Source: a virus. Taken from it: 34,568 nucleotides of DNA. This document shows positions 2,380 to 19,236 of this stretch, piece after piece. Each line of letters starts with the position of its first letter. Position 1 is the first letter of the stretch. The notes beneath the pieces are model-generated. The model worked only from the letters and a program-made list of their open reading frames with translations, had not been told where the DNA came from and searched no databases. The DNA lies in IMG/VR virus record IMGVR_UViG_3300025649_000009, positions 1 to 34,568 of that record; one strand, given 5' to 3'. The translations under genes and the position numbers were made by a program.

Positions 2380-2406
2380 AAGGGACGGGGTTTCCCCCGT
2401 CCCTGT
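2380..2406 (-). terminator. Rho-independent terminator after the MoxR gene
   Basis: On the minus strand a nine-base GGGACGGGG/CCCCGTCCC stem with a four-base loop is followed by TTTTGC. It lies about 20 bases after the stop of the ATPase gene and before the VWA promoter. Confidence 0.85.
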
Positions 2407-2426
2407 CGCTCTCGCTGTCCTTTCTG

Positions 2427-3509: not shown

Positions 3510-3524
3510 TGTCTTCCCTTTCAT

Positions 3525-4099: not shown

Positions 4100-4428
4100 T
4101 AAAGCCGAGCGACTTTTCGAGTGAACGGATCGGAACTATTCGTCATCAGGAAGAGAAGAAGATCGTCGGCTTCCTCGAGTGTGATCTCTGATCCGTCATC
4201 CCATTTGCGATCGGAGCCTTCGAGGTCAAGAGCGTAGTCGTGAGCGATCGCCGGAACGGGGTCAGGCGTGTTCGGAGCGAACGTGTATTCGTCATGTTCG
4301 TAATCGACCGGAATCGTCAGTTGCTTCCCGTGTCTTGACTGAACAACGATCGTCTCTGTGACGGTCCACGTCTTCCCCCGCTCCGACGGGAGCAACTCAA
4401 TCTTTGATCCGGTTCGCCTCGATGTCAT
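4018..4428 (-). CDS. DUF1353-like phage protein
   Basis: The 136-residue protein has the pattern of DUF1353: a beta-rich front with ITIP-like TIPVDYEHDEYTF, an AHDYALDL segment (the family's conserved HDY motif), a helix with EADDLLLFLM, and a late VVRFGWIAFH segment. DUF1353 proteins occur in tailed phages, often near tail or lysis genes, without firm function. The start overlaps the end of the transglutaminase-like gene by 32 bases; a GAGG lies about nine bases upstream of the ATG. It is the last gene of the long structural transcription unit. Confidence 0.75.
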   Translation of the reverse strand: MTSRRTGSKIELLPSERGKTWTVTETIVVQSRHGKQLTIPVDYEHDEYTFAPNTPDPVPAIAHDYALDLEGSDRKWDDGSEITLEEADDLLLFLMTNSSDPFTRKVARLYHRQVVRFGWIAFHFHTVKRWFKNLFA

Positions 4429-5050
4429 CTTTCACTCGCCTCTTCAATTCGAATTGAACGTGACTCCATGCGTGACGATGATTGAACGAGAACCAGACGT
4501 CCCGATATTCCGGACGATCCTTGACGAGCGTCTTCTCTGCGACCGGAGTGTCGGCGTCTTCGAGGTAACACCAATCGAGAGCGATCCATTCGTTGTCGGA
4601 GCATCGGCAGTAAACGCAGTAAGCGTGTCCCCCCTCGGCGGCTCCGGCTCCGGCGTCGACCCATCCCGCCGCAACTCGGACTCTCCATTGATGCTCGTCA
4701 GGGAGAGCGTTGAGAAGAAGAGAGGCGATCAGGATCGCACCGTCTTCACAATCACCCTTCTTCATCGCACACGTCTCGGCGGGGAACATCCAATATTCGG
4801 GGACGCCGAGAGTCGAGTCGCTGACATACGACAGCATCTTCGTCACGAATTGCTGACAGCGATGAGCGGTCTCGTCGTTCGACTGAGTCCTGAGATTGTT
4901 GCATCCGATCAGACGAAGAAGTTCGATGTCGTCTTCCCAAACGAATTGACGGACGTCCATGTCGTAAGCATTCCCATTCGGGAGCGGTCGTCCGGAATAG
5001 AGTTGCGGCGTGAGAGGATGCTTGTTGTGCCAATAATCGGGAGTCTTCAC
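4397..5050 (-). CDS. transglutaminase-like cysteine peptidase-fold protein
   Basis: I choose the GTG at 5050, which overlaps the upstream stop as GTGA, giving 217 residues. The catalytic triad of the transglutaminase-like fold is visible: Cys about 101 in KKGDCEDGA, His about 142 in EGGHAYCVY and Asp about 159 in IALDWCY. Members can be peptidases, transferases or amidases; the substrate cannot be read here. No signal peptide is present. Its position after the exported proteins and beside DUF1353 would fit a role in cell-wall processing or virion maturation, but this is inference. No other lysin-like gene is visible in the window. Confidence 0.8.
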   Translation of the reverse strand: MKTPDYWHNKHPLTPQLYSGRPLPNGNAYDMDVRQFVWEDDIELLRLIGCNNLRTQSNDETAHRCQQFVTKMLSYVSDSTLGVPEYWMFPAETCAMKKGDCEDGAILIASLLLNALPDEHQWRVRVAAGWVDAGAGAAEGGHAYCVYCRCSDNEWIALDWCYLEDADTPVAEKTLVKDRPEYRDVWFSFNHRHAWSHVQFELKRRVKDDIEANRIKD

Positions 5051-5637
5051 AAGTATGAGTCCCACGGATACGGATTGAAGAGGGTGAGATGCCAGTCCCC
5101 TTCGATGGTCTCCGTCGTTGTGTCTGTCATCTTGAAATAGATTGTCCGATTCTGCCCGTCGTTGAAGATGTCCGGCTCGAAAACATTCCCGTTGTTATCA
5201 GTCATCGTCGGAACAACATTCCAACTGATGAACGGCGGATCGAATTGCCAGTATGACACAACAAGATAATGCGCCTTCACGCCCCCGATTGTTCTGACTT
5301 GCAAGTCCTGTTGATCGAAGTCTAGGTCGAACCATTGCTCGGGAAGCCACGGTCTGTCACCGTCTTCATAGGCGATGCCATTCGTCGGAAGGTTATCCAC
5401 ACCGAAGGCGTCTTGACAATCCATGTTCGCAAGTACGTCGTCGACCTCGATCCCTTCGATGAGATTCGGGCAGTCATAGAGAACCTGTTGGCTCTCCCGA
5501 TACCAATCCCCATCCGGACCCCGAATCGGTCCGGTGACTGTCCGTCCCTGTTCCATCGCTTCGGCGACGAGGAACGCACCGACAAAGAGGCTGATGATCA
5601 CGAGATGTGTGAGGAAGAAGTTGCGACCGTGAAGCAT
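5047..5637 (-). CDS. exported unknown protein, paralogue of the next gene upstream
   Basis: The protein of 196 residues starts MLHGRNFFLTHL with a hydrophobic stretch to about residue 26 and a likely cleavage after AEA, so it is probably exported or membrane-anchored. It shares with the gene at 5650-6225 the motif NLPxNGIxxxDGD in the middle and a GxWxLTLxxP ending, so the two are tandem paralogues. Calcium-style DNNGN and DGDW motifs suggest beta-sandwich folds. GGGGGTC precedes the ATG. Function unknown; placed in the fibre/adhesin region. Confidence 0.75.
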   Translation of the reverse strand: MLHGRNFFLTHLVIISLFVGAFLVAEAMEQGRTVTGPIRGPDGDWYRESQQVLYDCPNLIEGIEVDDVLANMDCQDAFGVDNLPTNGIAYEDGDRPWLPEQWFDLDFDQQDLQVRTIGGVKAHYLVVSYWQFDPPFISWNVVPTMTDNNGNVFEPDIFNDGQNRTIYFKMTDTTTETIEGDWHLTLFNPYPWDSYL

Positions 5638-5649
5638 GATGACCCCCTG

Positions 5650-6225
5650 TTATTGATGAGCCGTTGACGATGCCGGACCGAGAAGCGTCAGTTGCCATGT
5701 CCCAGAGATCGGGACAAAACTCGACACGTTCAGAACGAGCGACGTCGTGTTGAGAGAAATGATGTCGTCGGGCCATACCCCGTCCCCGTCCGAAGTGAAC
5801 ACTCGCCAAATCGGGGCGACGTTCCCGAGGTGATGATCGACGATCATGACGCCGCTTGTCAGATCGCCGTTCTCGAACCCCACCGAGAAATAACTATTGC
5901 TCCCCGTCATGACCTTGTCGCCGTCGGCGAACTGTATCCCGTTCGGCGGAAGGTTCGTCAATGCGAACTCGCCTTGCATATCGAGAGTCGAGAAGACCTT
6001 GATCGAGTCGTTCGTGTCGACCTCTCCGTTCCCGTTCGAGTCAGCCCACAAGCCGCCGGACAACTCGACCGCATGAACAATGTTTGTCCGGAAGGTCTTC
6101 GGCTTGCCGATGAGCGTTCCTCGGATCGTCACTTGTCCTCGATGAATCGCCGGAGCAATCAGACCGAACCCGAGGATCGAGATCGTGACGCATATCATGA
6201 CGACAAAGAATGTGCTTCGTTTCAT
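5650..6225 (-). CDS. exported unknown protein with EF-hand/dockerin-like DSNGNGEVD segment
   Basis: The start at 6225 (MKRSTFFVVM) has AGGGAG eight bases upstream; the open frame extends further up but inside the beta-helix gene. A hydrophobic segment at residues 6-26 is a signal peptide or anchor. The loop ADSNGNGEVDTNDS at about 61-74 resembles a dockerin or EF-hand calcium loop. The NLPPNGIQFADGD and GTWQLTLLGP segments match the paralogue at 5047-5637. 191 residues. Role unknown, probably surface or tail associated. Confidence 0.75.
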   Translation of the reverse strand: MKRSTFFVVMICVTISILGFGLIAPAIHRGQVTIRGTLIGKPKTFRTNIVHAVELSGGLWADSNGNGEVDTNDSIKVFSTLDMQGEFALTNLPPNGIQFADGDKVMTGSNSYFSVGFENGDLTSGVMIVDHHLGNVAPIWRVFTSDGDGVWPDDIISLNTTSLVLNVSSFVPISGTWQLTLLGPASSTAHQ

Positions 6226-6230
6226 TTCAT

Positions 6231-8075
6231 TTACTCCCTGATGAAGATCGGATGTCCGCCGATCCTGATGATTCTTTCGTCGACCCTGAGAAAGCCTTCT
6301 TCGAATGGCGGGATGACGAAAGAGAATGCGCCTTGTGAGAAGTTCCCGCCCTGAGGTCGACCGTTGCCGTCGATGTCTTCTTCGATCCCGATGTCGATCG
6401 CCGCTCCGACGCAAGGTGATCCGGACAAGATCGAGAAGTCGGAAGCGAAGAGAGGATCGGCGTCGATGTTCCCCGCTCCGGAATAGCCGCCTTCGATGTC
6501 GGAGTATGAGACGACAGCCGCTCCGAAGATTGCGTTGCTCGTTCCGGCGGCGTTGCCGTACACGATCGAGTTCGTGATCACGACCGTCACGCCTACGTCG
6601 GCGAAGATCGCTCCGCCTTTGTCGTTGCAAGTGTTTGTCGAGAATGTGCAATAAAGGAACCGAGCGTCGGCGGCTGATGTGATCTTGTCGAGGTACACCG
6701 CACCCCCGTCGCCGCTTGCGTTGACGTTCGCCATGTTGCCGGAGAAGAGAGAGTTCTCGACCGTCAAGACCGTCGCTCCGTTCTGAACGAACATCGCACC
6801 CCCGAGGAAGCCGCCGTCGTTCTCGATGAAACGACACCGCTTCACGGTACTCGTCACACCCCCCGCAATACCCGTCGACCAAAACAACATTGCTCCGCCT
6901 TTTTGGACCGAGAGATTTGCGATCGAGTTGCTGATGAATGTACAGTCCTCGAAGTCAAACGTGTCAGTTGCGTTCCCCTTGACAATCACCGCTCCGCCGA
7001 GAGAGTATGTCGCCCTGTTGCCGACGAACGTCGAGTTCAGAACTGAGACTGTGTTCCCCTGAAGGTTCAACGCTCCGCCGTTCCGAGCCGTGTTCCTCGT
7101 GAAGTCACAATCGACGATCGTCACGTTGTCCCCCGTAAGAGACATGATTGCGGATTCTGAGTTGAGAGTGAACTGACAGTTCGTGAAGAGATACCGAGTG
7201 TCCGTGAGAACGCTTCCAAGAAGAAAAAAGATGCCTTGAGACGTTCCGGTTGTATGATTGAGCCGGACGTCGCAGTCATCGAACTCCATTTGAGTCCCGT
7301 GTCCGGCGATATACATTGCCGCACCGCTGTACCCTGATGAGTTCGTGGAAAACGTGCATCGGTCGAACCGTCCCGACGAGACGAGAGGAACGTACATCAC
7401 GCCGCCGAACGTCCCCGCCGCATTATTCGTGAAGACCGTGTCGGCGACCCTGAGTTCGTCAAGTCCGTAGTTGTAAATCGAGCCGCCCTGAATCGCTGAG
7501 TTTGCGAGGAACGTGCAATTCGAGAGAGTGACAAGTTCGCCCGACGATGGCGGGTTGTAAAAGTACAATGCTCCGCCCTGAATCGATGCGGCGTTGTTGT
7601 CGAAGACGCAATTCCTGATCTCAACTGAATCAGCCGAGTTGACGCAACGCATCACGCCGCCGCCGGTCGAACTGTTGCCGTCTTTACAGAAGAACCCGTC
7701 GAGGACAATGTTGCCCGAGAACGGCAGAGACGTTCCGATCTGTTGGAAGACCGGACGAGAACCCGCACCCGAGAGGATCGATTGATCAGTCATCCATTGC
7801 CGCTCGGCAAGGCTCGTCATCCCGTTCGTGAATCCGCCGAAGAGACCGATGTCGATCATCGGGGGGAACGGACTGTTCGTGTATTGTCCGGCGGCGATCC
7901 AGAGATTCGTGCCCGCCTGTGAAGATGTGATTGCATTCGAGAGGTCCGTGTATGCGTCAGCCCACGACGAACCGTCGTTCGCTCCCGTAGCATTGATGTC
8001 GACATACTCCGTGACAGCGACAGCGACAGACGAGATCGAGAGCAATGCGATCATGATCAGGATGATTCGTTTCAT
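6231..8075 (-). CDS. exported right-handed beta-helix protein with POMP-like repeats
   Basis: A clear signal peptide (MKRIILIMIALLSISSVAVA) is followed by YVDINATGANDGSSWADAY, a hallmark front of bacterial parallel beta-helix proteins. Through about residue 530 there are recurrent GGA/GGAM...F...N..A segments (for example GGALYF, GGAVIV, GGAMLF, GGAMFV, GGAVYL), the pattern of Chlamydia polymorphic outer-membrane proteins. Near 545-590 a DADPLF...LSGSPCVGAA cap resembles the end of secreted beta-helix proteins in PVC-group and related bacteria. 614 residues; starts by ATGA overlap with the lipoprotein gene. In phages such folds serve as tailspikes or polysaccharide-binding fibres; the signal peptide makes a surface-displayed adhesin possible too. 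Confidence 0.85.
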   Translation of the reverse strand: MKRIILIMIALLSISSVAVAVTEYVDINATGANDGSSWADAYTDLSNAITSSQAGTNLWIAAGQYTNSPFPPMIDIGLFGGFTNGMTSLAERQWMTDQSILSGAGSRPVFQQIGTSLPFSGNIVLDGFFCKDGNSSTGGGVMRCVNSADSVEIRNCVFDNNAASIQGGALYFYNPPSSGELVTLSNCTFLANSAIQGGSIYNYGLDELRVADTVFTNNAAGTFGGVMYVPLVSSGRFDRCTFSTNSSGYSGAAMYIAGHGTQMEFDDCDVRLNHTTGTSQGIFFLLGSVLTDTRYLFTNCQFTLNSESAIMSLTGDNVTIVDCDFTRNTARNGGALNLQGNTVSVLNSTFVGNRATYSLGGAVIVKGNATDTFDFEDCTFISNSIANLSVQKGGAMLFWSTGIAGGVTSTVKRCRFIENDGGFLGGAMFVQNGATVLTVENSLFSGNMANVNASGDGGAVYLDKITSAADARFLYCTFSTNTCNDKGGAIFADVGVTVVITNSIVYGNAAGTSNAIFGAAVVSYSDIEGGYSGAGNIDADPLFASDFSILSGSPCVGAAIDIGIEEDIDGNGRPQGGNFSQGAFSFVIPPFEEGFLRVDERIIRIGGHPIFIRE

Positions 8076-8482
8076 GGATTGAGTTCCTCGAGTTCTTCGG
8101 TGTATCGCTTCCGGTGAAAGGCGAGTTGACGTCGCCGCATCTCGGCGAAATATGCGAGGTTCGTCTCAATCCCGTAAATCATGCGCTCGACGTCGTTCGT
8201 CTCCGAGTCGGTTCGGTAGTCCTCGGGGAGTGACGCTTCCGCTTTTGCGATCCATCCGGCGGCGTACACATCGACATGATTCGTCAGGACGAACATCTCC
8301 GCATCGAGCCGAGTGACGATGTCCTCGATCATCGAGCGTCGGGCATCCTCGAGGGATTGCACTCCGGTCGACGTCGCAGTCGTGAACGATCGAGTCTCCG
8401 GCTCGATCGGATCGACCGTCGCCTTCTTCGCACACGAACAAAAGAGTCCGGCGAATAGAATGATGGTGATCAGTTGCTTCAT
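8072..8482 (-). CDS. small lipoprotein
   Basis: The N-terminus MKQLITIILFAGLFCSCAKK has a short charged head, a hydrophobic core and a lipobox-like LFCSC, so residue 15 or 17 should be lipidated after export. The rest of the 136-residue protein is mostly helical with many Glu and Arg and ends in a helix EELEEL. AAGGGGAAACG precedes the ATG and the stop overlaps the beta-helix start by ATGA. It may be an outer-membrane anchor or superinfection-exclusion lipoprotein; a second o-spanin is another option. Confidence 0.75.
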   Translation of the reverse strand: MKQLITIILFAGLFCSCAKKATVDPIEPETRSFTTATSTGVQSLEDARRSMIEDIVTRLDAEMFVLTNHVDVYAAGWIAKAEASLPEDYRTDSETNDVERMIYGIETNLAYFAEMRRRQLAFHRKRYTEELEELNP

Positions 8483-8491
8483 CGTTTCCCC

Positions 8492-9520
8492 TTAGTTGAA
8501 CGGGACCGTTGACTTCCGGACCCATGATCCGGACTGACGAGCTTCGACGACATACGAGTTCGTGATGATACCCGTCCGACAAGAACCGTTCTGATTCGTC
8601 GGTCCGTAGTGAACGAGATGAGCATTCGTCGCAACGACAAAGTCACGTTCCCATTCGTTATTTTGCAGATCAATGACTTCGGCATTATCCGAGGACGAGT
8701 GAATTGCGAAGTTGTTTTCCGAGAAGTTGATCAGAGTGCTTCCGCTGTTCGGCTCGTCAATAGAAAAGTTGACAAGGTCGAATGCCGCATCGCTCGTCGT
8801 GTTCCACAATAGCCTTGCGTTGCCGCTTCCAATATCTAGCACCTTGTTCCCCACCGGATCATAAATAGCTTCCCGACCACCTATAAGATCGAACACCATC
8901 GCATCACTTGCCGACCGGATCATCGGGGTTGCGGCTGTAAAGTCGAACAGGACGACCGCTCCGGCGTCATCATAGAAGTGACCGTTCGCCAAATCTATAA
9001 TCGATGCACTTCCCTGAGACGCCCAAATCGTGTTGATCAGAAGTTGATTGTTTGCCCGATCGAGAAAGGGGAAGCCGAACGCACTATCGTAAATATCAAC
9101 GGCGGCTCGACTGTTTTCGGAATCAGTCAGCCGAGTCGTGAAGGCGTGATCGTACAAGTCCATCGTGAGCCAACCGTTTTCTTTGTCTGTCCATTGCGAA
9201 GCATAACCGGAGTCATACAGATCGAGACTCATGTCGGCGTTCGCCTCGTCGATGATTGTCGCTCCGGCGTTGTCGGTGATGTATCCCGTCACCTTGATAC
9301 CGCTCGGAGTTTCGACCGCTCCGCTCCCGCCGTTGCCGACAATACCTGCCGGACAATTGAAGGGAGTTCCGTTCGTTCCGGTGATACCGCCGTCAGAGAC
9401 TTCGACCGGAGTTCCGTTTGTCCCCTCGATCGTGCCTCGTACCGTGAGATCGCCGACCTGAATCCCGAGAGCCGAGCCGGAGAACGAGAGAGCGATTGTG
9501 ATCAACATCCATTTCTTCAT
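8492..9520 (-). CDS. fibre-like protein with signal peptide
   Basis: The start at 9520 (MKKWMLITIALSF) has AAAGGAAC upstream; the hydrophobic stretch ends at SALG, a probable cleavage site. Residues about 60-340 are built from short repeats of the type VDIYDSAF, LDLYDSGY, FDLIGG, INFSENNF, separated by Asn/Asp/Gly-rich turns, as in trimeric fibre shafts. Residues about 215-300 match residues of the large fibre at 11323-13596 closely (shared LVNFSxxEPNxGxTLxN, NFAxHSSxDN, IDLQNN). 342 residues. Probably a tail-associated fibre or an exported relative of one. Confidence 0.75.
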   Translation of the reverse strand: MKKWMLITIALSFSGSALGIQVGDLTVRGTIEGTNGTPVEVSDGGITGTNGTPFNCPAGIVGNGGSGAVETPSGIKVTGYITDNAGATIIDEANADMSLDLYDSGYASQWTDKENGWLTMDLYDHAFTTRLTDSENSRAAVDIYDSAFGFPFLDRANNQLLINTIWASQGSASIIDLANGHFYDDAGAVVLFDFTAATPMIRSASDAMVFDLIGGREAIYDPVGNKVLDIGSGNARLLWNTTSDAAFDLVNFSIDEPNSGSTLINFSENNFAIHSSSDNAEVIDLQNNEWERDFVVATNAHLVHYGPTNQNGSCRTGIITNSYVVEARQSGSWVRKSTVPFN

Positions 9521-9537
9521 TGCTGAGTTCCTTTGTG

Positions 9538-10608
9538 TTATCTGCGACCGGACACATTCCATGTCTGATTGCTCATGTAATCGAGAAGACTGTCGAGATG
9601 AATCTTGCAGTTCGTCGCCGACTCGGCTTCGATGTTGTCGGGGATGATCCAGTTGTCAAACTGATCATAAACGAAGACGGAGAGGTATTGCTCCCCGAGA
9701 TCGTGAACGAGATTGAAGTTCGTCGTCGTTGCGTCGACCGTCATGTCGCCGACTGCGAACGATGCCGAAGCTGAGAGCGCACGGAAGACGAGTTGTGTGT
9801 CGGTGTCGGAATAGAGATACCCCTCGGAAGCCGTCACGTCGATCGCTTCGTTCGTCGTCATGACCTGAGTCCGATCGCCGACGCTCGTGACGTAGAACAT
9901 GAAGTCCCCGTCGACGCTGATCGATGAGCCGTCGGTGAACGTGAGAGAGTTCGTTGCGATCCCGACGATGCTGTTGCTGTTCATGTTGAGGTCCGTGTGC
10001 ATCTTGTTCAGGTTCCATTCATAGACTGGATTTGCGGCTGAATCGTTCAGCGTTCGCCCGTCCCAATCGAGGGACACGTTTGCGCCGTCACCGATTAGCT
10101 GATTCTGTTGCCAATCAAGAACGGTGATTCCTGTCCAATCGTGCAACTCTCCATCACCGAAGTTCACGGCGATTCCGTTGTTGACGTCGTACAAAATGAG
10201 AGACGTGATGTGCATCGCTCGTTCGTTTGCGGTCTCATCCTTCCAGATCACGCCGTTTGCGAGATCGATCTTCGTCTCGCCGGAGTAGAGTTTATTTGCC
10301 CCCATGTCAATATTGTTTGTCACCGCTCGAGCGTCGACCGGACTCCCACCCCCGCCGGACGGATTGGACACGACGACTCTCACCGCAACATTCATCTCGT
10401 CGTCGTATGTGTAGGACAGACGCTGACGATCGTTGAGATGAAGAGGGAGTCGGTTCGTGATGCTTCCGGCGTCGGTGACGTATCCACGGGCAGCGACGTT
10501 CGTGCTGTCGTCCCATGTGAACGACTGATATTCGAGGTCATTGAGATTCTGTCCGACGACTGTCGAAGCGATCATTCCGATCGCACACGCAATGAGAAAC
10601 CTTTTCAT
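9538..10608 (-). CDS. fibre-like protein with signal peptide
   Basis: MKRFLIACAIGMIASTVVGQN is a typical signal peptide ending at VVG or VGQ. The body contains fibre-like short repeats (MGANKLYSG, IDLANGVIWKD, LDWQQNQLIG, SLDWDGRTLND) and a DGSSISVDGDFMF turn, then a domain of about 100 residues near the C-terminus with VFVYDQFDNWIIP. The 356-residue protein starts by ATGA overlap with the lipoprotein gene and has AAGGAAGG upstream. It is likely a shaft-and-tip adhesin related to its two neighbours. Confidence 0.75.
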   Translation of the reverse strand: MKRFLIACAIGMIASTVVGQNLNDLEYQSFTWDDSTNVAARGYVTDAGSITNRLPLHLNDRQRLSYTYDDEMNVAVRVVVSNPSGGGGSPVDARAVTNNIDMGANKLYSGETKIDLANGVIWKDETANERAMHITSLILYDVNNGIAVNFGDGELHDWTGITVLDWQQNQLIGDGANVSLDWDGRTLNDSAANPVYEWNLNKMHTDLNMNSNSIVGIATNSLTFTDGSSISVDGDFMFYVTSVGDRTQVMTTNEAIDVTASEGYLYSDTDTQLVFRALSASASFAVGDMTVDATTTNFNLVHDLGEQYLSVFVYDQFDNWIIPDNIEAESATNCKIHLDSLLDYMSNQTWNVSGRR

Positions 10609-10913
10609 GATTTGCCTTCCTTGTTTTCAATATTCCACGAGAACCAAAAGAGACGGAACCGACCATCGATGCTTGCGAGTTCTTTCAAGACGCCGCCGAT
10701 CGCATTCAGAAGATCGGTGACGATCGGGATCGGGACCGACACTCCGGTCCTGAGTTCGGTCGGGTAATTTGCCGGACGATCGCTCATCGCCTTGATCTGT
10801 TCGGGACTCCGGAGATCGATCTCACCGAGACCGATTTCGCCTCGGCTCGTCACGCATCCGGCAACGACCGACAGGATCACGACACACGACAGGATTCGAG
10901 CGAATAGTTTCAC
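10605..10913 (-). CDS. lipoprotein, candidate o-spanin
   Basis: A GTG start overlaps the previous stop as GTGA. MKLFARILSCVVILSVVAGC is a signal with a lipobox VVAGC, placing Cys20 as the lipidated residue; no Asp follows it, which suits outer-membrane sorting. The remaining 80 residues have a Pro-containing middle and an aromatic end (FRLFWFSWNIE). It directly follows a membrane-anchored coiled-coil protein, the arrangement of two-component spanins that fuse inner and outer membranes in lysis. Assignment rests on topology and context only. Confidence 0.65.
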   Translation of the reverse strand: MKLFARILSCVVILSVVAGCVTSRGEIGLGEIDLRSPEQIKAMSDRPANYPTELRTGVSVPIPIVTDLLNAIGGVLKELASIDGRFRLFWFSWNIENKEGKS

Positions 10914-11314
10914 GGCGATTTGATCTCCCTGATCTCGTCCTTGATGTCGCTCCGGAACTGACGTTGATCGACTCTCATCTGTTCGAGGATGCTGATCACG
11001 GCTGAATGACGCTCTTGCGCTCGAGCCTTGATCGCCTCGATCTCGTTCTTGTTCTCGTCCGCCTTTGAACTGTTGAGCCTGACGTCCTTCTTCACTTCGG
11101 CGATCTTCGTATTCGAGCCGGACTGAACATCGGCGATCGAACTCTTGATCGTCTCGTGTTCATTCGTATTCCCTGCCCACACCGACCGGACAAGAATGAA
11201 CAAGAGCGGGACAACGACGCCCGTTGCGACGATACCGATGACCTTGAGAATCTTCTGATTCACTTTCCCCTCGATCCGTCCGTTCAGTTCTGACGTTGTG
11301 TCTCTGTCGCCCAT
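10910..11314 (-). CDS. membrane-anchored coiled-coil protein, candidate i-spanin
   Basis: The 134-residue protein has a charged N-terminus, a single membrane segment at about residues 22-46 (ILKVIGIVATGVVVPLLFIL) and a long helical region from about 55 to the end with Lys/Glu-rich heptad-like spacing. This is the topology of an inner-membrane spanin, and a lipoprotein gene follows with a four-base overlap. A holin-like or tail-anchoring membrane protein is the alternative. AGGGGGCAAC lies directly before the ATG. Confidence 0.6.
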   Translation of the reverse strand: MGDRDTTSELNGRIEGKVNQKILKVIGIVATGVVVPLLFILVRSVWAGNTNEHETIKSSIADVQSGSNTKIAEVKKDVRLNSSKADENKNEIEAIKARAQERHSAVISILEQMRVDQRQFRSDIKDEIREIKSP

Positions 11315-11322
11315 GTTGCCCC

Positions 11323-13596
11323 CTAATCGCTGATCTTAATCATCGAGAAGTTGTTATGCGATGCCGTGAGTGTCTTCCCGCCAGAAGTTTCATTCGCCAG
11401 ATACAACGCAACATATTGTGAGTTCGTCATGTACGCTGTGCCTAGGAGAACAAGCTGATAAAACTCATTCTTGTTCTTCAAGAACACTTCCGTACCAAGT
11501 GACGCCATGATCTCATTCGTCACACCATTGTTTCCCCTGAAGATGTGACCATGAATGTCTTGACTATCCGAACCATTGGATATGTTAATCTGCCCTGCGA
11601 AGAGGTACCACCCGTCTGCATCGTCAGAAGCAAGTTGAACTCCGCTGTTTGTGAAAACAATGTTTGCCGACTGTCCGCCCACGGTCCACATATCCCAAAC
11701 GTAGAATCTATCCACTTCAGCTTGAACAAGCGTTCCTTGATTTGTCCAACCGTTCACAAAGTCCATCATTATCGGCAGATTTGTAAGACCAGCACCATCT
11801 CCGGAATACGCCATGTTCGTGATGTAGTTATTCTGCAAATCAATCCGCTTGACGTTGTCAGCACTCGAATGAAGAGCGAAGTTGTCTTCTGTCCAATTGA
11901 CAAGTGTGCCTCCGCCGTTTGGTTCCTCAGTCGAGAAGTTCACTAAGTCCAGCGCATCGTCATCGACGCCATTCCACACGATCCGTGCATCGCCGCCGCC
12001 GATGATCATCACATTATTGCCACTCGTATCTTTGATGACTTCATTCCCACTAGAGAGATCAAACACAACCACGTCGCTGTCACTCCGAAGAGCGGGGCTT
12101 GCTCCCGCCTCGAGAATCACATTGCCCGAATCAGCGATGAGTTGACGATTCGTGTTGAGTATCACGCTGTCATCATGATCTTCGAGATTGCCACGGAAGC
12201 CGACAGCTTCCAGATCGGGACCGTACAGGAGATCGAGTTTGCCTGTCGCCATAGCATCGTGTGTCACGAATCTGATGACGGTATCAATCGCAGACTCAGC
12301 TTGCATGATGAAATATTCTGCGCCGTCGAAAAAGCGAAAGCCATTCAAGTATGAGTTCGTCGGATCAACGTCGAGCATATAAACATCTGCATAATTCCAA
12401 ACGTGGACGTTGTTGACAGCATTTGTCCAGAGAGGGTCAACCTCGGTCATCGTCACGTCGAACAACTGAGAGCCGTCAAGAACCCCGAGTTGTCCGGCGG
12501 AGTTCATGAGAGTCTTGCTCCCGAACTGAAGTGTGTTCTCTGTCGTGTTCTCACCCTGCCCGAGTTGAATCGTGTTCGTGAGTCCGAGTTGAACTTGCGC
12601 CTGAAAGCCGAGAGCCGCCGATCCTATCCCGTCGGCTTTCGTTCCGTACCCGACGACCGTCGCTCGGTTGCTTGCGATCGCAGTCTCGCCGACTGAGACA
12701 CTTTGGAAATATGAGTCGGAGAACCGACCGACCGAGACGGAGTTGTTCGACGAGAACGATCCGCCGCCGAGAGCGACAGCCGACACGGAGAACGCCTCGT
12801 CTCCGATCGAGATCGAGTTTGCGTTTGCTTCCGCCAAATATCCCCACACGAACGACGCATTGAGAGCGGTCGACGCTTCCCCCGCCGCAAACGACGCACC
12901 GTCAGCCGTCGCATTCTCTCCGATCTCGACATCGTTGTATGATCCATAGGGTGCCGAGTCGAAGATGCGGAAGAACTTCGTTCCCGCCTCGTCGAAGAGA
13001 AGGACTTCATGATTCGGGACGTCGCTCGTTGCGAACAGTCGAGACGGTCCGAGGACTTTCCAATAGTTCGAGACGGTCCCGTCGACCCACGGGACGTCGG
13101 GTTCGGGGATCGTCGTCGGGAACAGAGTCGAGAAGTTGCCGGAGTTCCAATCGTTCGTCGCACGATCAATGAAGTTCGTGACGGCTCCGCTGACGGCGAT
13201 CCAGTTCGTGAAGTTCGCACCGTCCTCACTCCGCTCGATGACGAACGATCTGACCCCATCGTAAGGGGTCCATGAGATCGAGACGGCGTTCGTGAGAGCG
13301 AAGGCGTTCGTCAATGCAGGATTCGCATTGAACGTCACAGAGTTCGACGGCGATGTCGGAAGACGTCCGGCTCGGTTCGTTCCGTTGATCCGGTAGTATC
13401 GAGTGAACGTCCCGTTCAGGTATCCGCCCGCCGCATGATTCGTCGGACTCATTGAGGGAGCATCCGTCGACGTCCAGAGTCCGACGCTCACATCACGGTA
13501 AAAGATTGTCGGTGAGTATATGCCGCCGCCCGTTCCGCCGAGAACTGTTCCGGCGAAGCCGACGATCGCAATCACAAGAGCAAGAAGTTTCTTCAT
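11323..13596 (-). CDS. large modular fibre/adhesin: signal peptide, FN3, YadA-like head repeats, C1q-like tip
   Basis: The 757-residue protein starts with a signal peptide (MKKLLALVIAIVGFAGTVLG). Residues about 60-145 look like a fibronectin type III domain (VSISWTPYDGVRSFVIERS). Residues about 225-345 are YadA/Hep_Hag-like head repeats (VEIGENATADG, SISIGDEAFS, SVSVGETAIA, SAALGFQAQ), followed by a fibre shaft with NTIQLGQGEN. Residues about 500-590 match the fibre at 8492-9520. The last 110 residues (GWYLFAGQINISNG...MIKISD) resemble a C1q/TNF-like trimeric jelly roll. Such trimeric modules bind hosts. AAAGGAAACCG precedes the ATG. A signal peptide on a would-be tail fibre is unusual. Confidence 0.85.
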   Translation of the reverse strand: MKKLLALVIAIVGFAGTVLGGTGGGIYSPTIFYRDVSVGLWTSTDAPSMSPTNHAAGGYLNGTFTRYYRINGTNRAGRLPTSPSNSVTFNANPALTNAFALTNAVSISWTPYDGVRSFVIERSEDGANFTNWIAVSGAVTNFIDRATNDWNSGNFSTLFPTTIPEPDVPWVDGTVSNYWKVLGPSRLFATSDVPNHEVLLFDEAGTKFFRIFDSAPYGSYNDVEIGENATADGASFAAGEASTALNASFVWGYLAEANANSISIGDEAFSVSAVALGGGSFSSNNSVSVGRFSDSYFQSVSVGETAIASNRATVVGYGTKADGIGSAALGFQAQVQLGLTNTIQLGQGENTTENTLQFGSKTLMNSAGQLGVLDGSQLFDVTMTEVDPLWTNAVNNVHVWNYADVYMLDVDPTNSYLNGFRFFDGAEYFIMQAESAIDTVIRFVTHDAMATGKLDLLYGPDLEAVGFRGNLEDHDDSVILNTNRQLIADSGNVILEAGASPALRSDSDVVVFDLSSGNEVIKDTSGNNVMIIGGGDARIVWNGVDDDALDLVNFSTEEPNGGGTLVNWTEDNFALHSSADNVKRIDLQNNYITNMAYSGDGAGLTNLPIMMDFVNGWTNQGTLVQAEVDRFYVWDMWTVGGQSANIVFTNSGVQLASDDADGWYLFAGQINISNGSDSQDIHGHIFRGNNGVTNEIMASLGTEVFLKNKNEFYQLVLLGTAYMTNSQYVALYLANETSGGKTLTASHNNFSMIKISD

Positions 13597-13605
13597 CGGT
13601 TTCCT

Positions 13606-14187
13606 TTATGGTGTGTATCGGTGAGCGACTGTTCCGTCAGGCAAATAAATGACCGTATCTTCTCCGTCGAAACCGATCAGCGATGTCAGGGAGTACACGA
13701 GCGACGACGTCGCACCGATGTCGCTCACGATGTTCTTCATCACGATCGGCATTTGAACGAGAAGGACGGGATCGCCTGTCGGCGGAGTCATCCAGAGTTC
13801 CCCCGCCATATTGATTTGAGCGTTGTCCCCGAGAAGCGTTTGCAGTTGCGTCGACGTCGTGTTGACTCGGAAACAAATCTTCCCGTTGTCGACAGCGAGT
13901 TCATCCCAATCGGCGGCGATGTTGAACTGAGCGTTGTCGCTTGCGACGGGGTCTTCATGCGTCGGATCGTAAACGGAATCCATGTTGAAGTTCCATGTCG
14001 AACCCGTCTCCGGTCGAAACGGCGTGACGTTGTCGGCGAGAAGAAGGTGACACCGGAACAACGTCTGAGACTTCCGGAACATACTCAACGAACCGATCTT
14101 CGTGTTGAATCCGTTTTGACTGACACGGTCTCCGGACTCCGTGTTCACAAAGATTTCGATCGTCCGTCTGTTGTCAACTATCGGCAT
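13606..14187 (-). CDS. tail-tip or baseplate-associated protein, unknown
   Basis: The 193-residue protein has no signal peptide. Its front, MPIVDNRRTIEIFVNT, followed by alternating strands (CHLLLADNVTPF, GKICFRVNTTSTQ, GELWMTPPTGDPVLLVQMPI), resembles the N-terminal attachment domain of baseplate upper proteins in siphoviruses. It ends with DGTVAHRYTP. GGAAAGGTGATGAA precedes the ATG. Its position between the tip proteins and the large fibre fits an adaptor that joins fibre to tail, but no family is certain. Confidence 0.6.
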   Translation of the reverse strand: MPIVDNRRTIEIFVNTESGDRVSQNGFNTKIGSLSMFRKSQTLFRCHLLLADNVTPFRPETGSTWNFNMDSVYDPTHEDPVASDNAQFNIAADWDELAVDNGKICFRVNTTSTQLQTLLGDNAQINMAGELWMTPPTGDPVLLVQMPIVMKNIVSDIGATSSLVYSLTSLIGFDGEDTVIYLPDGTVAHRYTP

Positions 14188-14214
14188 TTCATCACCTTTC
14201 CCAAATCAGCCCCG

Positions 14215-14220
14215 ATTATA
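14215..14220 (-). promoter_or_regulatory. possible internal promoter -10 (TATAAT)
   Basis: The minus strand carries a perfect TATAAT with a preceding TG, 28 bases before the ATG at 14187. The -35 region is poor (TTCGAA at 17 bases). The same bases lie in a small CCCCTGAT/ATCGGGG hairpin overlapping the stop of the upstream gene. It could start the adhesin cassette separately. Confidence 0.3.
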
Positions 14221-14225
14221 CATTA

Positions 14226-15941
14226 TCAGGGGACATATTCGAAGTCGTATTTCCGGACCCAATCTGCCCGATCGTGGGACCATCCCATCTGTCCCGTCTG
14301 TTCAGTCGTCAGAACGGTCGGCTTCGTGATCGATCCGTATGATGCGGAACTCGTCCACGCATTACCCGTCACGTTCTCGTCGCTTCCTTCGTGCAAGAAA
14401 AATCCGTGAAACGGTTCGCCCTGTTCATCCCATCGGCCTTGAGCCTTCGCCTTCATGTAAAAGTCGATCGTGTAAGGGACTTGACCCTTCAGATCGAAGG
14501 CGGCGGGGGATGCTTCCCGAGTCCGTCCCCTGACGAACCATGCTGTCGGACTCAACTCGACGATCTCCGTGTACCGGAACGGAGCGGCATCCTCACTCGC
14601 CGAGATGACGAATGCTCCGCCGCTGTAATTGGCGATCGCATTCGCCCGAGTGTATCCCGTCGCAGAATAACTGTAAGCGTTATCAACTCCGGTCATGTTT
14701 CGCCATGACTCCGGCTCGACGAAGAACGATTGTTGATTGCGCCGACTCCATCTCATCGTTCGATTGAATAGTTCATAACCGATGTCGATCTGTTCCTTCC
14801 AAAGTCTTTCCGTGTTGTCCGAGTTCCTCGAGTAAACCGTTCCGCCTTGCCGCCAGTTCACTGCGACCGTATCTCCAAAGTTCACGCCTTCGCCGACAAT
14901 CTCCGCACTCTTGATTTCATACCACGGAAGAGTCAGTTGTGCGCTCGTCAATAGGTTCACGACTTCGACGGCTGGAACGACTTGTTGATTGAACTGCCCG
15001 ATCTCGAAGTTGACGGGGATCAGATACTTGTTCCCTCTCAACGTCACGACCAAAGGATCGACGAGTCCTTGCGGTCCGCCTTCCCTGAACTCGATCCACG
15101 GCAACTCAGCGTTCGGGAAGAACCAGTTGCTCGGAGCGTGTCCGATATAATTGAATCGCCACATCTCGGCGGCTGTCCAATACGACTCCGACAAAGTCGA
15201 GAACCAATTTGTGAGGACGTCAGGAACGGCGATCAGTTCGGCTTGTGCGTTCGTGACAAGACCGAACGGACTCGTGAGCGTGTCTTCAACCTTCGCAAGA
15301 TTCATGTCGGCGAGTCCGGAATAGTAGAGATGAGCGGGGAACGTAATTGAGGCGGGAAGCCACTTAGGCCAATTTGTTCCCGTGCCGTCATCGGTCCCGA
15401 GATAATCCTCGAAGTCTCCATCGGTCTCGAGATTTGTGACAGCCCAAAACGAGAGGGAGTCCCCAAAAGGAATGAACGATCGGAAGATGTATTCATACGG
15501 AAGATTCACTTCGCCGAAGACGCCGAAGAACGGAGACGACACGACCAAAGGGAACGCCGTCGACGTATTAGTGACGCCGCCTTGATCAACGTACTTGTAT
15601 GCCGCCGGAGCGATGAAGTTCGTGAATTGAACGGCGACGTCCTTTTGGACCGTCTGAGTGTAAATCGTTCCGGCGATGTCGACGGTCGAGGTCCATACTC
15701 CGGCATAACACCGGATGAGTTCGACCGGATACTCGTCCCACATCCGATTCGTCCCGACTCTTGTAAGGTTGCGCTCGGTGAATGCTCCCGAGAGTTTTTG
15801 ATACGGCTCCGCATCCTTGATGATCGTGTACCATGAGATCGGTCCGGCGTACTTGTTCGAGAGCGGAAGTTCTCCATCCCATCCTTGCCCGAACGATCGA
15901 GATGCGATGAGCATGAATAGAATGACGATTGCTCTCTTCAT
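14226..15941 (-). CDS. large exported tail-region protein, unknown
   Basis: The start at 15941 gives 571 residues beginning MKRAIVILFMLIASRSFGQ, a convincing signal peptide with cleavage near SFG. The mature part is rich in Trp, Tyr and Phe, with many Thr/Asn-rich strands, no Cys cluster and no repeats; segments such as AVNWRQGGTVYSRN and WFVRGRTREASPA suggest beta-rich domains. It begins just after the stop of the preceding gene, with no strong ribosome binding site. Position after two cytoplasmic-looking tail-tip genes suggests a tip or receptor-binding component; the signal peptide contradicts simple cytoplasmic assembly. Confidence 0.7.
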   Translation of the reverse strand: MKRAIVILFMLIASRSFGQGWDGELPLSNKYAGPISWYTIIKDAEPYQKLSGAFTERNLTRVGTNRMWDEYPVELIRCYAGVWTSTVDIAGTIYTQTVQKDVAVQFTNFIAPAAYKYVDQGGVTNTSTAFPLVVSSPFFGVFGEVNLPYEYIFRSFIPFGDSLSFWAVTNLETDGDFEDYLGTDDGTGTNWPKWLPASITFPAHLYYSGLADMNLAKVEDTLTSPFGLVTNAQAELIAVPDVLTNWFSTLSESYWTAAEMWRFNYIGHAPSNWFFPNAELPWIEFREGGPQGLVDPLVVTLRGNKYLIPVNFEIGQFNQQVVPAVEVVNLLTSAQLTLPWYEIKSAEIVGEGVNFGDTVAVNWRQGGTVYSRNSDNTERLWKEQIDIGYELFNRTMRWSRRNQQSFFVEPESWRNMTGVDNAYSYSATGYTRANAIANYSGGAFVISASEDAAPFRYTEIVELSPTAWFVRGRTREASPAAFDLKGQVPYTIDFYMKAKAQGRWDEQGEPFHGFFLHEGSDENVTGNAWTSSASYGSITKPTVLTTEQTGQMGWSHDRADWVRKYDFEYVP

Positions 15942-15943: not shown

Positions 15944-16471
15944 TCAACTGTGACTCCGTCCTACAATGTCGAAATGGAAGTCGCCGCCCATGTGAAAAAT
16001 CTCCGGCTCTCCGTAAATGCCGCCCTCGGCTTCGAACTTGTAAAGAGCGAGCCGGACATACGGGGTCTGACTGACGGGAAGTTCACTCATGATCTCGAAC
16101 GTGCCGAACGGCGCACCCCCCCGCTGATACTGAATGAGGACAAAGCAAGGATTCCCGTCGAGGACGAGAGGCTCGTCGTCCTCGGTTGCGTCGATGTGAT
16201 ATTCGACGTCCTCGATATAGAAAACATATCCTTCGTTCAGATTGATCGACGTTCCCTTCTCGTGCCATTCCCACCAGAAATGAAGGTTTCCGAGACTGAA
16301 GGCGGGGGAATCTTGCAACGTGACGAACGTCCCTGTCGGATCGTTTGTCGTGTCGAAGACTTGAGGATCGAAGAACAGATTGCCCGACGCTCGAGCGGCT
16401 CTCGCCATTGCATTATAGGACGAGGTGTCAATGTGCTTGTCGCCGACCGTCTGTTCTTTGATTAGGCTCAT
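15944..16471 (-). CDS. tail-tip region protein, unknown
   Basis: The 175-residue protein MSLIKEQTVGDKHIDTSSYN... has no signal peptide and starts by ATGA overlap with the upstream gene. A long beta-rich stretch (FVTLQDSPAFSL, LHFWWEWHEKG, EGYVFYIEDVEYHI) is followed by IMSELPVSQTPYVRLALYKF. The N-terminal 45 residues look like a helical attachment segment. It is probably a virion tail-tip or attachment protein by position; I do not recognise a family. Confidence 0.65.
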   Translation of the reverse strand: MSLIKEQTVGDKHIDTSSYNAMARAARASGNLFFDPQVFDTTNDPTGTFVTLQDSPAFSLGNLHFWWEWHEKGTSINLNEGYVFYIEDVEYHIDATEDDEPLVLDGNPCFVLIQYQRGGAPFGTFEIMSELPVSQTPYVRLALYKFEAEGGIYGEPEIFHMGGDFHFDIVGRSHS

Positions 16472-17316
16472 TCAAGCGCACCGTCACCGTCGACGGAACC
16501 CCCGTCGAGTGTGTCTCCGATTTCTCCGCCGAGTTCCCCGTTCGATCCTGACTCGTCCTCGAGCAAGACATTAAGATCGGCAAACTCATAAACGCCGTTG
16601 CCTAGTCCTGACGGAGAGTCGTTCACTCGATCCCATATCATACGATCGTTCCGGAAGATGAACTCGAAGCCGTCCTTCTGTGACGTGTTGATTCCGGTGA
16701 CGGTCCTGAATGCGAAGTGGTAAGTGACCTTCCATCGCTTGTCGCCGTCAGCGTTCCTGAACTCTTCGGCGGGAGCGGCGATAAACATCCATTGACCTTT
16801 TGCTCTCGGCGTGACGCCGTCGAAGTTCGACGGGAACGGAGCCTCATTCAGCTTGCCCGAATAGTCGATGATCTGATCGAGGTTCAACGTCGCAACGATC
16901 TTCGTCACTTTCAGAACTCCGGTGACGACACGGCGGAAGACGGGTTGATTTGCGTGAACGCTTTGTCCCTCTCCGTCGCCGTCGACCCAATACCATTTTG
17001 ACGGGTCTTTGATTGTGTAGAACTCTCCGCCGATGTCGAGCGATCGGGGAAGGTCTTGCGGCTCGGGATTCGTTTCGCTTCCGTCAGCGAGAGTGTCCGG
17101 ACCATAATTGACCGTCATCTTCCTGATCTGAGGACTTCCGCCGTAATAGTCCGTGTGTTTCTCAAGGACGATCAATCCGTCTTCGTCCGGATGCTCTGCG
17201 AACCATGCCGGAATCCGATCGGTTCCGTCCGACGTCTCAACGAAAACTCGTTGTGCGCTTGACTGTTGCCACGTCTTGTCGACCTTGTGACCTTCGACGA
17301 GTTCTGTCCATCCCAT
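16468..17316 (-). CDS. tail protein following the tape measure, unknown
   Basis: This 282-residue protein follows the tape measure by nine bases, the place where distal tail proteins are usually encoded. AAGGTGTAATT precedes the ATG. Strand-rich segments (QIRKMTVNYG, RSLDIGGEFYTIKD, WKVTYHFAFRTVTG) and a late acidic Gly-rich tail (DESGSNGELGGEIGD) are visible. The GINTSQKDGFEF and GKWxxxxxP-like pattern gives no sure family. A Dit-like or tail-hub role is inferred from order only. Confidence 0.65.
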   Translation of the reverse strand: MGWTELVEGHKVDKTWQQSSAQRVFVETSDGTDRIPAWFAEHPDEDGLIVLEKHTDYYGGSPQIRKMTVNYGPDTLADGSETNPEPQDLPRSLDIGGEFYTIKDPSKWYWVDGDGEGQSVHANQPVFRRVVTGVLKVTKIVATLNLDQIIDYSGKLNEAPFPSNFDGVTPRAKGQWMFIAAPAEEFRNADGDKRWKVTYHFAFRTVTGINTSQKDGFEFIFRNDRMIWDRVNDSPSGLGNGVYEFADLNVLLEDESGSNGELGGEIGDTLDGGSVDGDGALE

Positions 17317-17325: not shown

Positions 17326-19236
17326 TTATGCGAAGACGGCGGATCGCTTCGTGAGATCGACGATCTCTCCGAGTGATTCAATCATCGCTTTCCTTTGTTG
17401 TTCCGCTGTTCCTGAATCCTTTGTCAGAGCCGACACCGAGTCGGACGAAATCTTGACCTCTCCCGCATTCGTCGATCCGCCCGTTGCGGTTCCGGCGGCG
17501 ACGGATTTCGCTGATGCCGCAAATCCTTCCGAGGCGAACCGTTGCGCTGACTTGACAGCGTCGGCGAATCCAGTGAACGATCCTTTCGCTTTGTCGTTTG
17601 CCTTCTTCACCTTCTTCGCATTCGTCGTTTGTGCGTCGGTTGCCTGATTGGATGCGGCTTCGACGACGGCGGATGTCTCTTCGGCGACGGTTTGACTCTT
17701 CTCTTCCGACGCCCATCGTTCTTCAAACATCATTTGCGACGTCTTGTTCATGATCCCGATCTCTTTCTCCCACGCTTTTGAGAGCGACTTGAACTTCGGG
17801 ATTTGCCCCTTCGTGATGAAGTCGAACGCCGCCTTCGTGTTCGCAGAGAAGGTTTGAATGACGGCTCCCGCCGCTGTCATGCGTCCCATGATCTCATTGA
17901 CAACGACCATCACTCCGAACTTGAGGTCTTCCCAGTATTTGACGAGAGCGACGACAGCCGCTCCGACGCCGATAATGATCGGGATGATCGGGAGAAGCGT
18001 CGAGAATGCGGCGACTCCCGCCGCAATCAACGGAACGATCAAGCCGAGGATCAGGAGCAAGGGACCGATCGCCGCAACGATCGCCGCAATGATGACGACC
18101 GTCTTCTTCCCGCCGTCGCTGAGATTGTCGAACCATGTCGTGACGAAGGCGATCCCGTCGGCGAGTTTCCGGACAGCCGGAGCAAGAGCCTTCCCGATCT
18201 GAAGTCCCATGACAGAGAGAGCCGCCTTCGCCCGATCAAGAGCGAACCCGAGTCCCTTCATCTGTTCAGCGAGAGCGTCAGCCGTAGCACCCGCACGACC
18301 TTCCCTCGTTGCGATGACTGCAAGATCGCCCGCAAAGTCCGCTCCGCCATTTCTCGCAAGACCGAACGCCGCCTTCAATGCTCGGATGTTGATCCCGAGT
18401 TCGGTGAAACCGGAAGCCGCTCCGCCCGTCTTGTCGATCAAGAATTGCATCGCTCCGCCGAGACCTCGAGACTGAATGATATTCGCTCCGGTCCCCTCGG
18501 CAGTCGAGGCGAAGAGCGTCTCGAGTTCTTTCGTCGGCTTGATGAACGTCAACATGAGTCGATTGAGTGACGTGAATGCTTCCGTCGTCTTGATGCCGCC
18601 TCGAGTCAGCGTTGCCGCCGCCGCCGCAATCTCGTCGAAGTTGACCTTCGCCGCCGCACCCGTAGCCGTTGCCGCTCCCATGTTCTCGGCGAGTTCTCCA
18701 AACGTGAGGACACCTTTCTCGACCGTCTTGAACAGAACGTCGGAGACGTCTCCCGCTTCCGAGGCTTCGAGACCATACGCATTGAGAATGTTCGTGATCG
18801 CCTTCGCCGACGTTGCCGTGTCCGTGACTCCGGCTCGTCCGGCTTCCGTCGCCGCCCGAAGAACGTCGAGTCCGTCGGCTCCGACAATACTTGCGGAGTT
18901 GATATTGTAGAGAGCCTCGGCGAGATCGGTCGGCGGCTTTCCCATCTCTTTCGAGAGAGACATCACCGTCGACGACATTGCGGCGAGTTCCTTCTCGCTG
19001 ACTTTGGCGATGACGTTCACGTTCCTCATCGCATCGTCGAACTTCGCAAACGATCGGACGGACACAACACCGATCGCCGCAATCGGAGCCGTGAGTCCAA
19101 TGCTCATCCGTCGACCGACTTGCTTCATCTTCTTCGAGGCGGACTGAAGACGAGATTGAACGGTCGACATCTTCTTGTTGAAGTCGGCGATGTTCGCCGT
19201 GACTTGAACAAAGGCGTCAGCGATTTTCGTTGCCAT
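17326..19236 (-). CDS. tail tape measure protein, TP901-like
   Basis: The 636-residue protein has the typical N-terminal helical segment (ADFNKKMSTVQSRLQSASKKM), then the conserved PhageMin_Tail core (SFAKFDDAMRNVNVIAKVSEKE, LAEALYNINSASI, AITNILNAYG, TTEAFTSLNRLM), a glycine-rich ALNAL-like stretch, and hydrophobic segments at about 375-430 (VVIIAAIVAAIGPLLLILG). It sets tail length and is ejected with DNA; it is short, so the tail should be short for a siphovirus, on the order of 100 nm by the usual length rule. GAGGGTGTAAC precedes the ATG, two bases after the chaperone extension stop. Confidence 0.93.
   Translation of the reverse strand: MATKIADAFVQVTANIADFNKKMSTVQSRLQSASKKMKQVGRRMSIGLTAPIAAIGVVSVRSFAKFDDAMRNVNVIAKVSEKELAAMSSTVMSLSKEMGKPPTDLAEALYNINSASIVGADGLDVLRAATEAGRAGVTDTATSAKAITNILNAYGLEASEAGDVSDVLFKTVEKGVLTFGELAENMGAATATGAAAKVNFDEIAAAAATLTRGGIKTTEAFTSLNRLMLTFIKPTKELETLFASTAEGTGANIIQSRGLGGAMQFLIDKTGGAASGFTELGINIRALKAAFGLARNGGADFAGDLAVIATREGRAGATADALAEQMKGLGFALDRAKAALSVMGLQIGKALAPAVRKLADGIAFVTTWFDNLSDGGKKTVVIIAAIVAAIGPLLLILGLIVPLIAAGVAAFSTLLPIIPIIIGVGAAVVALVKYWEDLKFGVMVVVNEIMGRMTAAGAVIQTFSANTKAAFDFITKGQIPKFKSLSKAWEKEIGIMNKTSQMMFEERWASEEKSQTVAEETSAVVEAASNQATDAQTTNAKKVKKANDKAKGSFTGFADAVKSAQRFASEGFAASAKSVAAGTATGGSTNAGEVKISSDSVSALTKDSGTAEQQRKAMIESLGEIVDLTKRSAVFA

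Follow-up and report, generated by a model that had tools for sequence, protein, structure and literature searches.

The 34.6-kb virus record IMGVR_UViG_3300025649_000009 from IMG/VR (34,568 nucleotides, referred to here as the window) carries on its minus strand a cassette of twelve genes between 5.0 and 15.9 kb, many of them coding for fibre-like or adhesin-like proteins. When judged by hand, nine of the twelve genes encode a Sec signal peptide or a lipobox. An initial annotation of the sequence had made this claim, and all nine were confirmed from the translations together with a signal scorer. The explanation that we favour, with a probability of about one in two, is that the exported fibres take on their fold outside the cytoplasm and are added to virions, at lysis or later, as accessory adhesins.

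All nine genes (starts at 15941, 13596, 10913, 10608, 9520, 8482, 8075, 6225 and 5637) encode an n-region with lysine or arginine, an uncharged hydrophobic core and an A-x-A-type cleavage site or a lipobox. Signal prediction over the listed proteins, which the initial annotation had proposed as a check, was run with a rule-based scorer (not SignalP) that tends to place the cleavage site too early. Of the cassette genes that were called automatically, 8 of 9 were positive, against 2 of 21 elsewhere in the window (Fisher p = 6e-5), and one of these two is an internal start within the tape measure gene. As controls, the scorer recovered 12 of 12 known exported proteins and called 0.85% of shuffled window N-termini. 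It was positive for none of 18 HK97 structural genes and for one of 20 genes from lambda, which is lom, coding for a known exported protein.

One signal had been missed in the list of nine. The gene at 23459–24025, just upstream of the capsid gene, also encodes a signal-like N-terminus, and its homologue in the related locus L007 (locus and genome handles with L and G are ours) lies in the same place with 45% identity (9.1e-37). The L007 homologues of both this gene and the lipoprotein gene starting at 10913 keep the signal and do not start past the hydrophobic segment, so the refuting outcome named in the initial annotation was not seen in this comparison.

The window gene order on the minus strand is terminase, portal-MuF (PF04860 and PF04233), prohead protease (PF04586), the gene at 23459–24025, capsid, connector (PF05135), tape measure, two genes in the tail-tip position and then the cassette. 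With PF05065, PF04860, PF04586 and PF10145 all present in the Pfam scan, the window is an HK97-type tailed phage; a search of its DNA against phage records gave no match at the DNA level to annotated phages. The spacing between cassette genes ranges from −4 to +38 nt and includes several ATGA-type overlaps, and the run is continuous with the tail genes. There was no excess of promoter-like sites in the cassette, where the genes nearly abut. Therefore, the cassette is probably read together with the virion genes. Shine-Dalgarno-like sequences lie just 5′ of most starts (13596, AAAGGAAAC; 10608, AAGGAAGG; 9520, AAAGGAAC; 5637, AGGGGG) and are weak at 10913, 8075 and 6225.

The query that led to relatives was the capsid protein; the terminase, tape measure and tail protein, used as single queries, matched one near-identical contig only. 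A first genome scan with a 4-row capsid alignment gave no match, and a second capsid-alignment scan matched Elusimicrobia prophages and one other genome. The Elusimicrobiota genome G186 gave seven capsid-gene matches, six strong and one weak (L037, L045, L047–L051), which suggests many related prophages. In phages whose capsid proteins are 49–63% identical to that of the window, three to five signal-bearing LamG, beta-helix or fibre genes adjoin the capsid gene. Such genes flank it in L006/G002 (the 63% identical case), L007, L008/G004, L014/G008 and L055, and in L006, L008 and L014 they lie between the capsid and connector genes. The domains recognized in these proteins are Laminin-G lectins (E to 1e-23) and a weak beta-helix; a TNF-like (tumour necrosis factor-like) end is only suggestive. 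A search with the LamG protein returned its two source contigs only. Long TPT-type repeats occur in the signal-bearing proteins L055:198–2456, L055:11008–12621 and L008:13696–15150 (the same gene in G004).

Read by eye, the mature part opens with an R/K-rich motif in one signal-bearing protein each of G002, G004, G008 and L055 (KRDANRN, IPRKNNS, APRDDNRV and IKRDSNS, respectively). A protein of an Elusimicrobia prophage that has no signal starts with the similar-looking ALKDGNRNP. In these prophages, fibre-like proteins without a signal are encoded directly after the capsid gene, so this position does not in itself require signals. The C-terminal knob of the signal-bearing fibre L014:12099 has a 36% identical counterpart in a 595-kb phage, in a protein without a signal. 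Searches by tblastn with the prophage protein L036:5857 and with L115:12256 gave no match. G008 was considered as a terminally redundant complete genome and rejected, as the exact end-repeat test was negative. In L013:6848–9253, L016:15580–17907 and L017:10191–12563, long open reading frames (ORFs) with glycosyltransferase-like starts (SIIMPVFNQLEYTVQAINSV) lie in the virion-gene region of phages without signal-bearing cassettes.

Across 79 non-duplicate loci, signals were found on 60 of 433 genes downstream of the capsid gene and on 13 of 436 upstream of it, with p = 3e-9, a value that is optimistic because the loci are related. The signal label is clustered on the capsid tree (6 changes, compared to 11.7 in shuffles), and the well-supported branches of this tree force at least four gains or losses of it.

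The strongest evidence that such signals are used comes from a distant clade with capsid proteins at 23–28% identity to the query, in which large signal-bearing proteins are encoded 4–9 genes after the capsid gene. We counted N-x-S/T sequons in 39 signal-bearing proteins of L064–L125 (including L112:13312–14850), of which 37 were informative. There were 972 N-x-S/T against 477 of the reversed S/T-x-N, and 36 of the 37 informative proteins leaned forward (p = 3e-10); composition-preserving shuffles agree (972 observed, 486 after shuffling). In contrast, the 187 proteins of these viruses that have no signal showed 514 N-x-S/T and 552 reversed. The adjacent-pair control was balanced, with 454 N[ST] and 448 [ST]N. 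This signature is the one expected if the signal-bearing proteins alone undergo N-glycosylation outside the cytoplasm, and it suggests N-glycosylated exported viral fibres in this clade.

In 17 of the distant-clade signal-bearing proteins, a segment WTPxSDIDxRxYY...NxTNI stands directly behind the predicted cleavage site. Mean pairwise identity among the 17 is 19% in the signal, 41% over the first 25 mature residues and 13% over the next 28. A conserved mature N-terminus that starts at the signal peptidase cut would be as expected for the docking segment of a modular fibre, which this segment resembles. The confinement of the sequon enrichment to signal-bearing proteins, taken with these mature N-termini, argues strongly that export is real in the distant clade. 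The sequons also make an archaeal host likely; a search for the MCM (minichromosome maintenance) helicase, aimed at such a host, found none in the clade, so ‘archaeal’ is a description drawn from the sequons. Neither the window nor its close relatives showed a sequon excess. For the lineage of the window, N-glycosylation was therefore rejected, and export there, which we regard as likely, is argued for by the signals alone.

Evidence from particles comes from cultured marine phages of Cellulophaga. In phi10:1 (gp091–094) and phi18:3 (gp085–087), seven proteins with Sec signals are annotated as virion components from tandem mass spectrometry (MS/MS); their presence in virions is taken from the record annotation of the MS/MS data (Holmfeldt et al. 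2013). The phi10:1 N-termini are MKKILLLLLFISASLS-A (gp091), MRKLLLISLFLTSVLSFG-Q (gp092), MKKTIYILSILLLTISGVSA-Q (gp093) and MKHTISIVLFFILSLGLNA-Q (gp094). The same signal-bearing block is present in phi19:3, phi13:2 and Ingeline_1, and the signal with a conserved N-domain (QTVEGTVGSDGSLIPYNVS) recurs across phage families, in proteins whose C-terminal parts vary. At 44–49% identity, phi17:2 and phi14:2 share the spike domain of phi10:1 gp093 and carry it in a protein without a signal; the signal-less spike protein of phi14:2 is likewise MS/MS-supported in its record. With regard to presence in particle preparations, the statement in the initial annotation that no well-described phage attaches exported fibres is thus incorrect. 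Signals on the lyases of Ingeline and Nekkels have been mentioned in passing, without a mechanism (PMC8776804).

The initial annotation had offered two explanations, display of exported proteins on the host and attachment of exported fibres to virions. Export itself is supported by the distant-clade sequons, attachment is better supported by the Cellulophaga annotation than had been thought, and surface display stays as a rival. Under the favoured explanation, the cassette would supply accessory receptor-binding or adhesive proteins (fibres and a beta-helix, with lectin-like domains in relatives), made late alongside the tail proteins and exported through the host Sec pathway. They would reach their folded, trimeric state outside the cytoplasm, which in diderm hosts means the periplasm and in the distant clade the space beyond the membrane, while virions would be assembled in the cytoplasm without these fibres. 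Lysis would then mix virions with mature fibres, which could dock on the particle, probably via a short conserved segment that signal peptidase exposes at the mature N-terminus or close to it. One or two cassette members (10910–11314 and 10605–10913) would probably belong to the lysis machinery. The signals, their clustering and recurrence, and the sequon signature in the distant clade are observed directly; that the signals are cleaved in the window's host, that the fibres fold extracytoplasmically and that they dock at lysis or later are steps that we infer. For virion association, the support is record annotation in two cultured phages and, in the others, the position of the genes. That this is a recurrent and hitherto undescribed route for building tailed virions, with Sec-exported fibres processed outside the cytoplasm (N-glycosylated in one clade) and added at or after lysis via a docking segment exposed by signal peptidase, is a more tentative proposal, to which we give somewhat less than even odds.

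Several points weigh against virion attachment. For the window and its close relatives the case for attachment is drawn from the genes and not from direct evidence, the window has no relative with a demonstrated particle, and both structure models failed: AlphaFold2 gave uninformative predictions for the C-terminal 225 residues of 11323–13596 and for the 23459–24025 protein (predicted local distance difference test, pLDDT, 37 and 32, respectively). The MS/MS presence in Cellulophaga phages consists of record notes, and secreted proteins could have co-purified. A periplasmic fibre has no known route to a particle before lysis, and we found no described example of fibre attachment after lysis. 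Finally, the occurrence of one signal and N-domain across Cellulophaga phage families is as compatible with an autonomous secreted module as with a docking module.

The main rival is a serious possibility, though in our estimate less likely than the favoured explanation: that the proteins are exported and are not virion parts, acting on the surface of the infected cell, in the periplasm or on debris left by lysis, with their presence in Cellulophaga particles due to co-purification. They might block receptors or act as decoys for them (superinfection exclusion, or keeping progeny off debris) or bind neighbouring cells or matrix. The signals, the export signature and the lectin and adhesin domains all fit such a role, as does the sharing of one signal and N-domain by unrelated Cellulophaga phage families, and lambda Lom sets the example of a protein that is encoded in a tail-gene region and exported but is no part of the virion (PMC12309495). 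However, the genes lie inside the head–tail assembly block, in L006, L008 and L014 even between the capsid and connector genes, and in two phages the products are annotated as structural proteins from MS/MS. Signal-less proteins take the same position in the Elusimicrobia prophages. An anchor by which a cell could retain the protein is present in few cases: Pfam and an anchor scan gave no clear membrane anchor, no YadA anchor and no autotransporter barrel for the cassette proteins, and clear C-terminal anchors are rare among the signal-bearing proteins, which counts against simple surface display.

It is unlikely that the hydrophobic N-termini are docking or oligomerisation helices of ordinary cytoplasmic fibres that resemble signals by chance. 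Cytoplasmic assembly is what one expects of tail proteins, and a hydrophobic N-terminus is by itself no proof of export, but K/R n-regions, A-x-A sites and lipoboxes occur here together. In the distant clade, moreover, conservation jumps just past the predicted cleavage site behind signals that are divergent yet hydrophobic, and sequon enrichment is limited to the signal-bearing proteins. Least probable, and very unlikely in our view, is a chance mixture of a lysis module (the spanin-like pair and a second lipoprotein) with surface genes that a temperate phage carries for lysogenic conversion. The weak resemblance of 11314/10913 to a two-component spanin pair and the usual presence of lipoproteins in lysis modules would speak for it. 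Against it, five or more of the genes, none of them for a lipoprotein, have fibre or beta-helix features and do not belong to lysis, there is no promoter-like excess, and no integrase was found among the window proteins scanned, which cover part of the genome of a possibly incomplete record.

Among known systems, the cassette resembles the Cellulophaga block (phi10:1, Assiduviridae; phi18:3, phi19:3 and phi13:2, Pachyviridae; Ingeline_1, Duneviridae). In both, several adjacent genes of the tail/fibre region code for fibre, lectin or beta-helix-like proteins with variable C-terminal parts, and almost all of these carry Sec signals; the Cellulophaga proteins are MS/MS-annotated virion components, whereas the window is known from genes alone. 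No window cassette protein matched a Cellulophaga-locus ORF by phmmer. The window block may thus work like these proteins, with membership of their group not shown. In the relatives G002, G004 and G008, the block stands beside the capsid gene and not behind the tape measure gene. Lambda Lom, a moron-type outer-membrane protein, is likewise an exported phage protein from the tail-fibre region, but it is a single beta-barrel expressed in lysogens, whereas the window encodes many soluble fibre-like proteins in a virion operon, and no outer-membrane beta-barrel family was found in Pfam for any cassette protein.

Conventional fibres and spikes (lambda Stf and J; the phi17:2 and phi14:2 spikes) share modular receptor-binding domains and variable C-terminal parts with the cassette proteins but have no signal peptide. 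The filamentous-phage proteins pIII and pVIII resemble them as virion proteins made as Sec precursors. Filamentous phages, however, build their particles in the membrane and extrude them, and a tailed phage with a terminase, a portal and an HK97-type capsid must assemble in the cytoplasm. The product of 6231–8075 has the repeats of the Chlamydia polymorphic membrane proteins (PMP; PF02415, 8.9e-11, above its cut-off), but no C-terminal autotransporter barrel was found in it by Pfam. Similarly, 11323–13596 has head-like repeats in common with trimeric autotransporter adhesins, but there was no YadA anchor match in Pfam for 11323–13596, 9538–10608 or 8492–9520.

The individual features are collected in Table 1. 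Of the claims about fold, the single beta-helix was borne out by PF13229 and PF02415. The three trimeric-fibre-like proteins fared less evenly, with repeat patterns visible by eye but no fibre family in Pfam or PHROGs for 13596, 10608 or 9520; the 10608 protein gave no match to phages by tblastn. The C-terminal halves of 11323–13596 and 8492–9520 are paralogous (phmmer, 2.5e-31). From their architecture and a weak Rz-like PHROG match, 11314 and 10913 look like an overlapping spanin-like pair, and the lipoprotein 10913 may be an ordinary spanin. The products starting at 6225 and 5637, with long hydrophobic cores, could be uncleaved anchors.

Table 1. Features of the window and of the Cellulophaga loci (a slash marks the predicted cleavage site)
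Position	Strand	Feature	Evidence and remarks
23459..24025	-	Signal-bearing protein (MKETLGLMVCIMAIASIAVGA/GESKYD) just upstream of capsid gene	L007 homologue
22455..23372	-	HK97-fold major capsid protein, no signal	PF05065 4.7e-11; PHROG 212 6.6e-23; anchor gene of comparison
17326..19236	-	Tape measure protein	PF10145 1e-22; PHROG 991 4e-66
15944..17316	-	Two tail-tip-position genes (16468–17316, 15944–16471), no signals	Directly upstream of cassette
14226..15941	-	571-residue protein, Sec signal (MKRAIVILFMLIASRSFGQG)	No Pfam/PHROG family; starts 2 nt after preceding tail gene
13606..14187	-	193-residue protein, no signal	Translation, Pfam/PHROG scans
11323..13596	-	757-residue fibre-like protein, Sec signal (MKKLLALVIAIVGFAGTVLG)	Repeats like trimeric head repeats, GDGAGLTN motif, beta-rich C-terminus
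10910..11314	-	134-residue protein, one N-in transmembrane segment and coiled coil; inner-spanin-like or holin-like	Weak PHROG Rz-like spanin match, E = 0.018
10605..10913	-	102-residue lipoprotein (VAG/C), GTG start; possible outer-spanin partner	4-nt overlap with preceding gene; lipobox kept in L007/L062 homologue
9538..10608	-	356-residue fibre-like protein, Sec signal (MKRFLIACAIGMIASTVVG/QN)	Residues 227–338 weakly match PHROG 16122 ‘virion structural protein’, E = 3e-4
8492..9520	-	342-residue fibre-like protein, Sec signal (MKKWMLITIALSFSGSALG)	C-terminal half paralogous to 11323–13596
8072..8482	-	136-residue lipoprotein (lipobox FCSC)	Translation
6231..8075	-	614-residue right-handed beta-helix, Chlamydia-PMP-type repeats, Sec signal, 13 Cys	PF13229 4.5e-16; PF02415 8.9e-11
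5650..6225	-	191-residue protein, N-terminal signal or anchor	Paralogue of 5047..5637
5047..5637	-	196-residue protein, N-terminal signal or anchor	Paralogue of 5650..6225
4397..5050	-	Transglutaminase/peptidase-like protein, no signal, GTG start	PF24656 5e-5, below cut-off; homologue in L007/L062 1.9e-66
L136:41847-47391 (phi10:1), L143:7348-13040 (phi18:3), L139, L142, L144		Shared signal and N-domain loci	

The transglutaminase/peptidase-like gene 4397–5050 is conserved as L007:573–1244, near a homologous lipoprotein gene in a phage with an otherwise rearranged genome, and may code for a lysis or tail-tip enzyme. Elsewhere in the window, 773–3524 encodes a DUF2201 metallopeptidase/VWA protein beside an AAA ATPase, a MoxR-like pair; the prohead protease gene (24082–25734) has a long acidic repeat tail (PDADPKPD...); and positions 1–450 are of low complexity, with a plus-strand ORF (18–332) that is nearly all Leu, Gln and Pro.

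Taken one by one, the domains are of kinds common in phages or adhesins. Their combination into a multi-gene block of exported fibres in a tailed-phage assembly operon occurs in at least three virus groups and was not found described in the literature that we searched, mostly outside subscription journals; nor was there a description of exported fibres joining virions. The receptor-binding proteins of tailed phages are assumed to assemble in the cytoplasm. The absence of signals has also been taken as support for the phage origin of diversity-generating retroelement (DGR) target proteins (PMC6199706). Exported fibres, if real, would run against this expectation, and extracytoplasmic fibre addition, if shown, would be a new assembly route. 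Since existing MS/MS-based annotation is available for the Cellulophaga phages, the question is directly testable. Annotation pipelines would, if this is true, be discarding real virion proteins as host contamination. The final maturation of the virion would be extracytoplasmic, and the fibres could gain disulphides or glycans and stay hidden from the assembly line. Fibres would also be shareable between particles and cells in a lysate, and their mixing between particles would give rise to a phenotypic host range.

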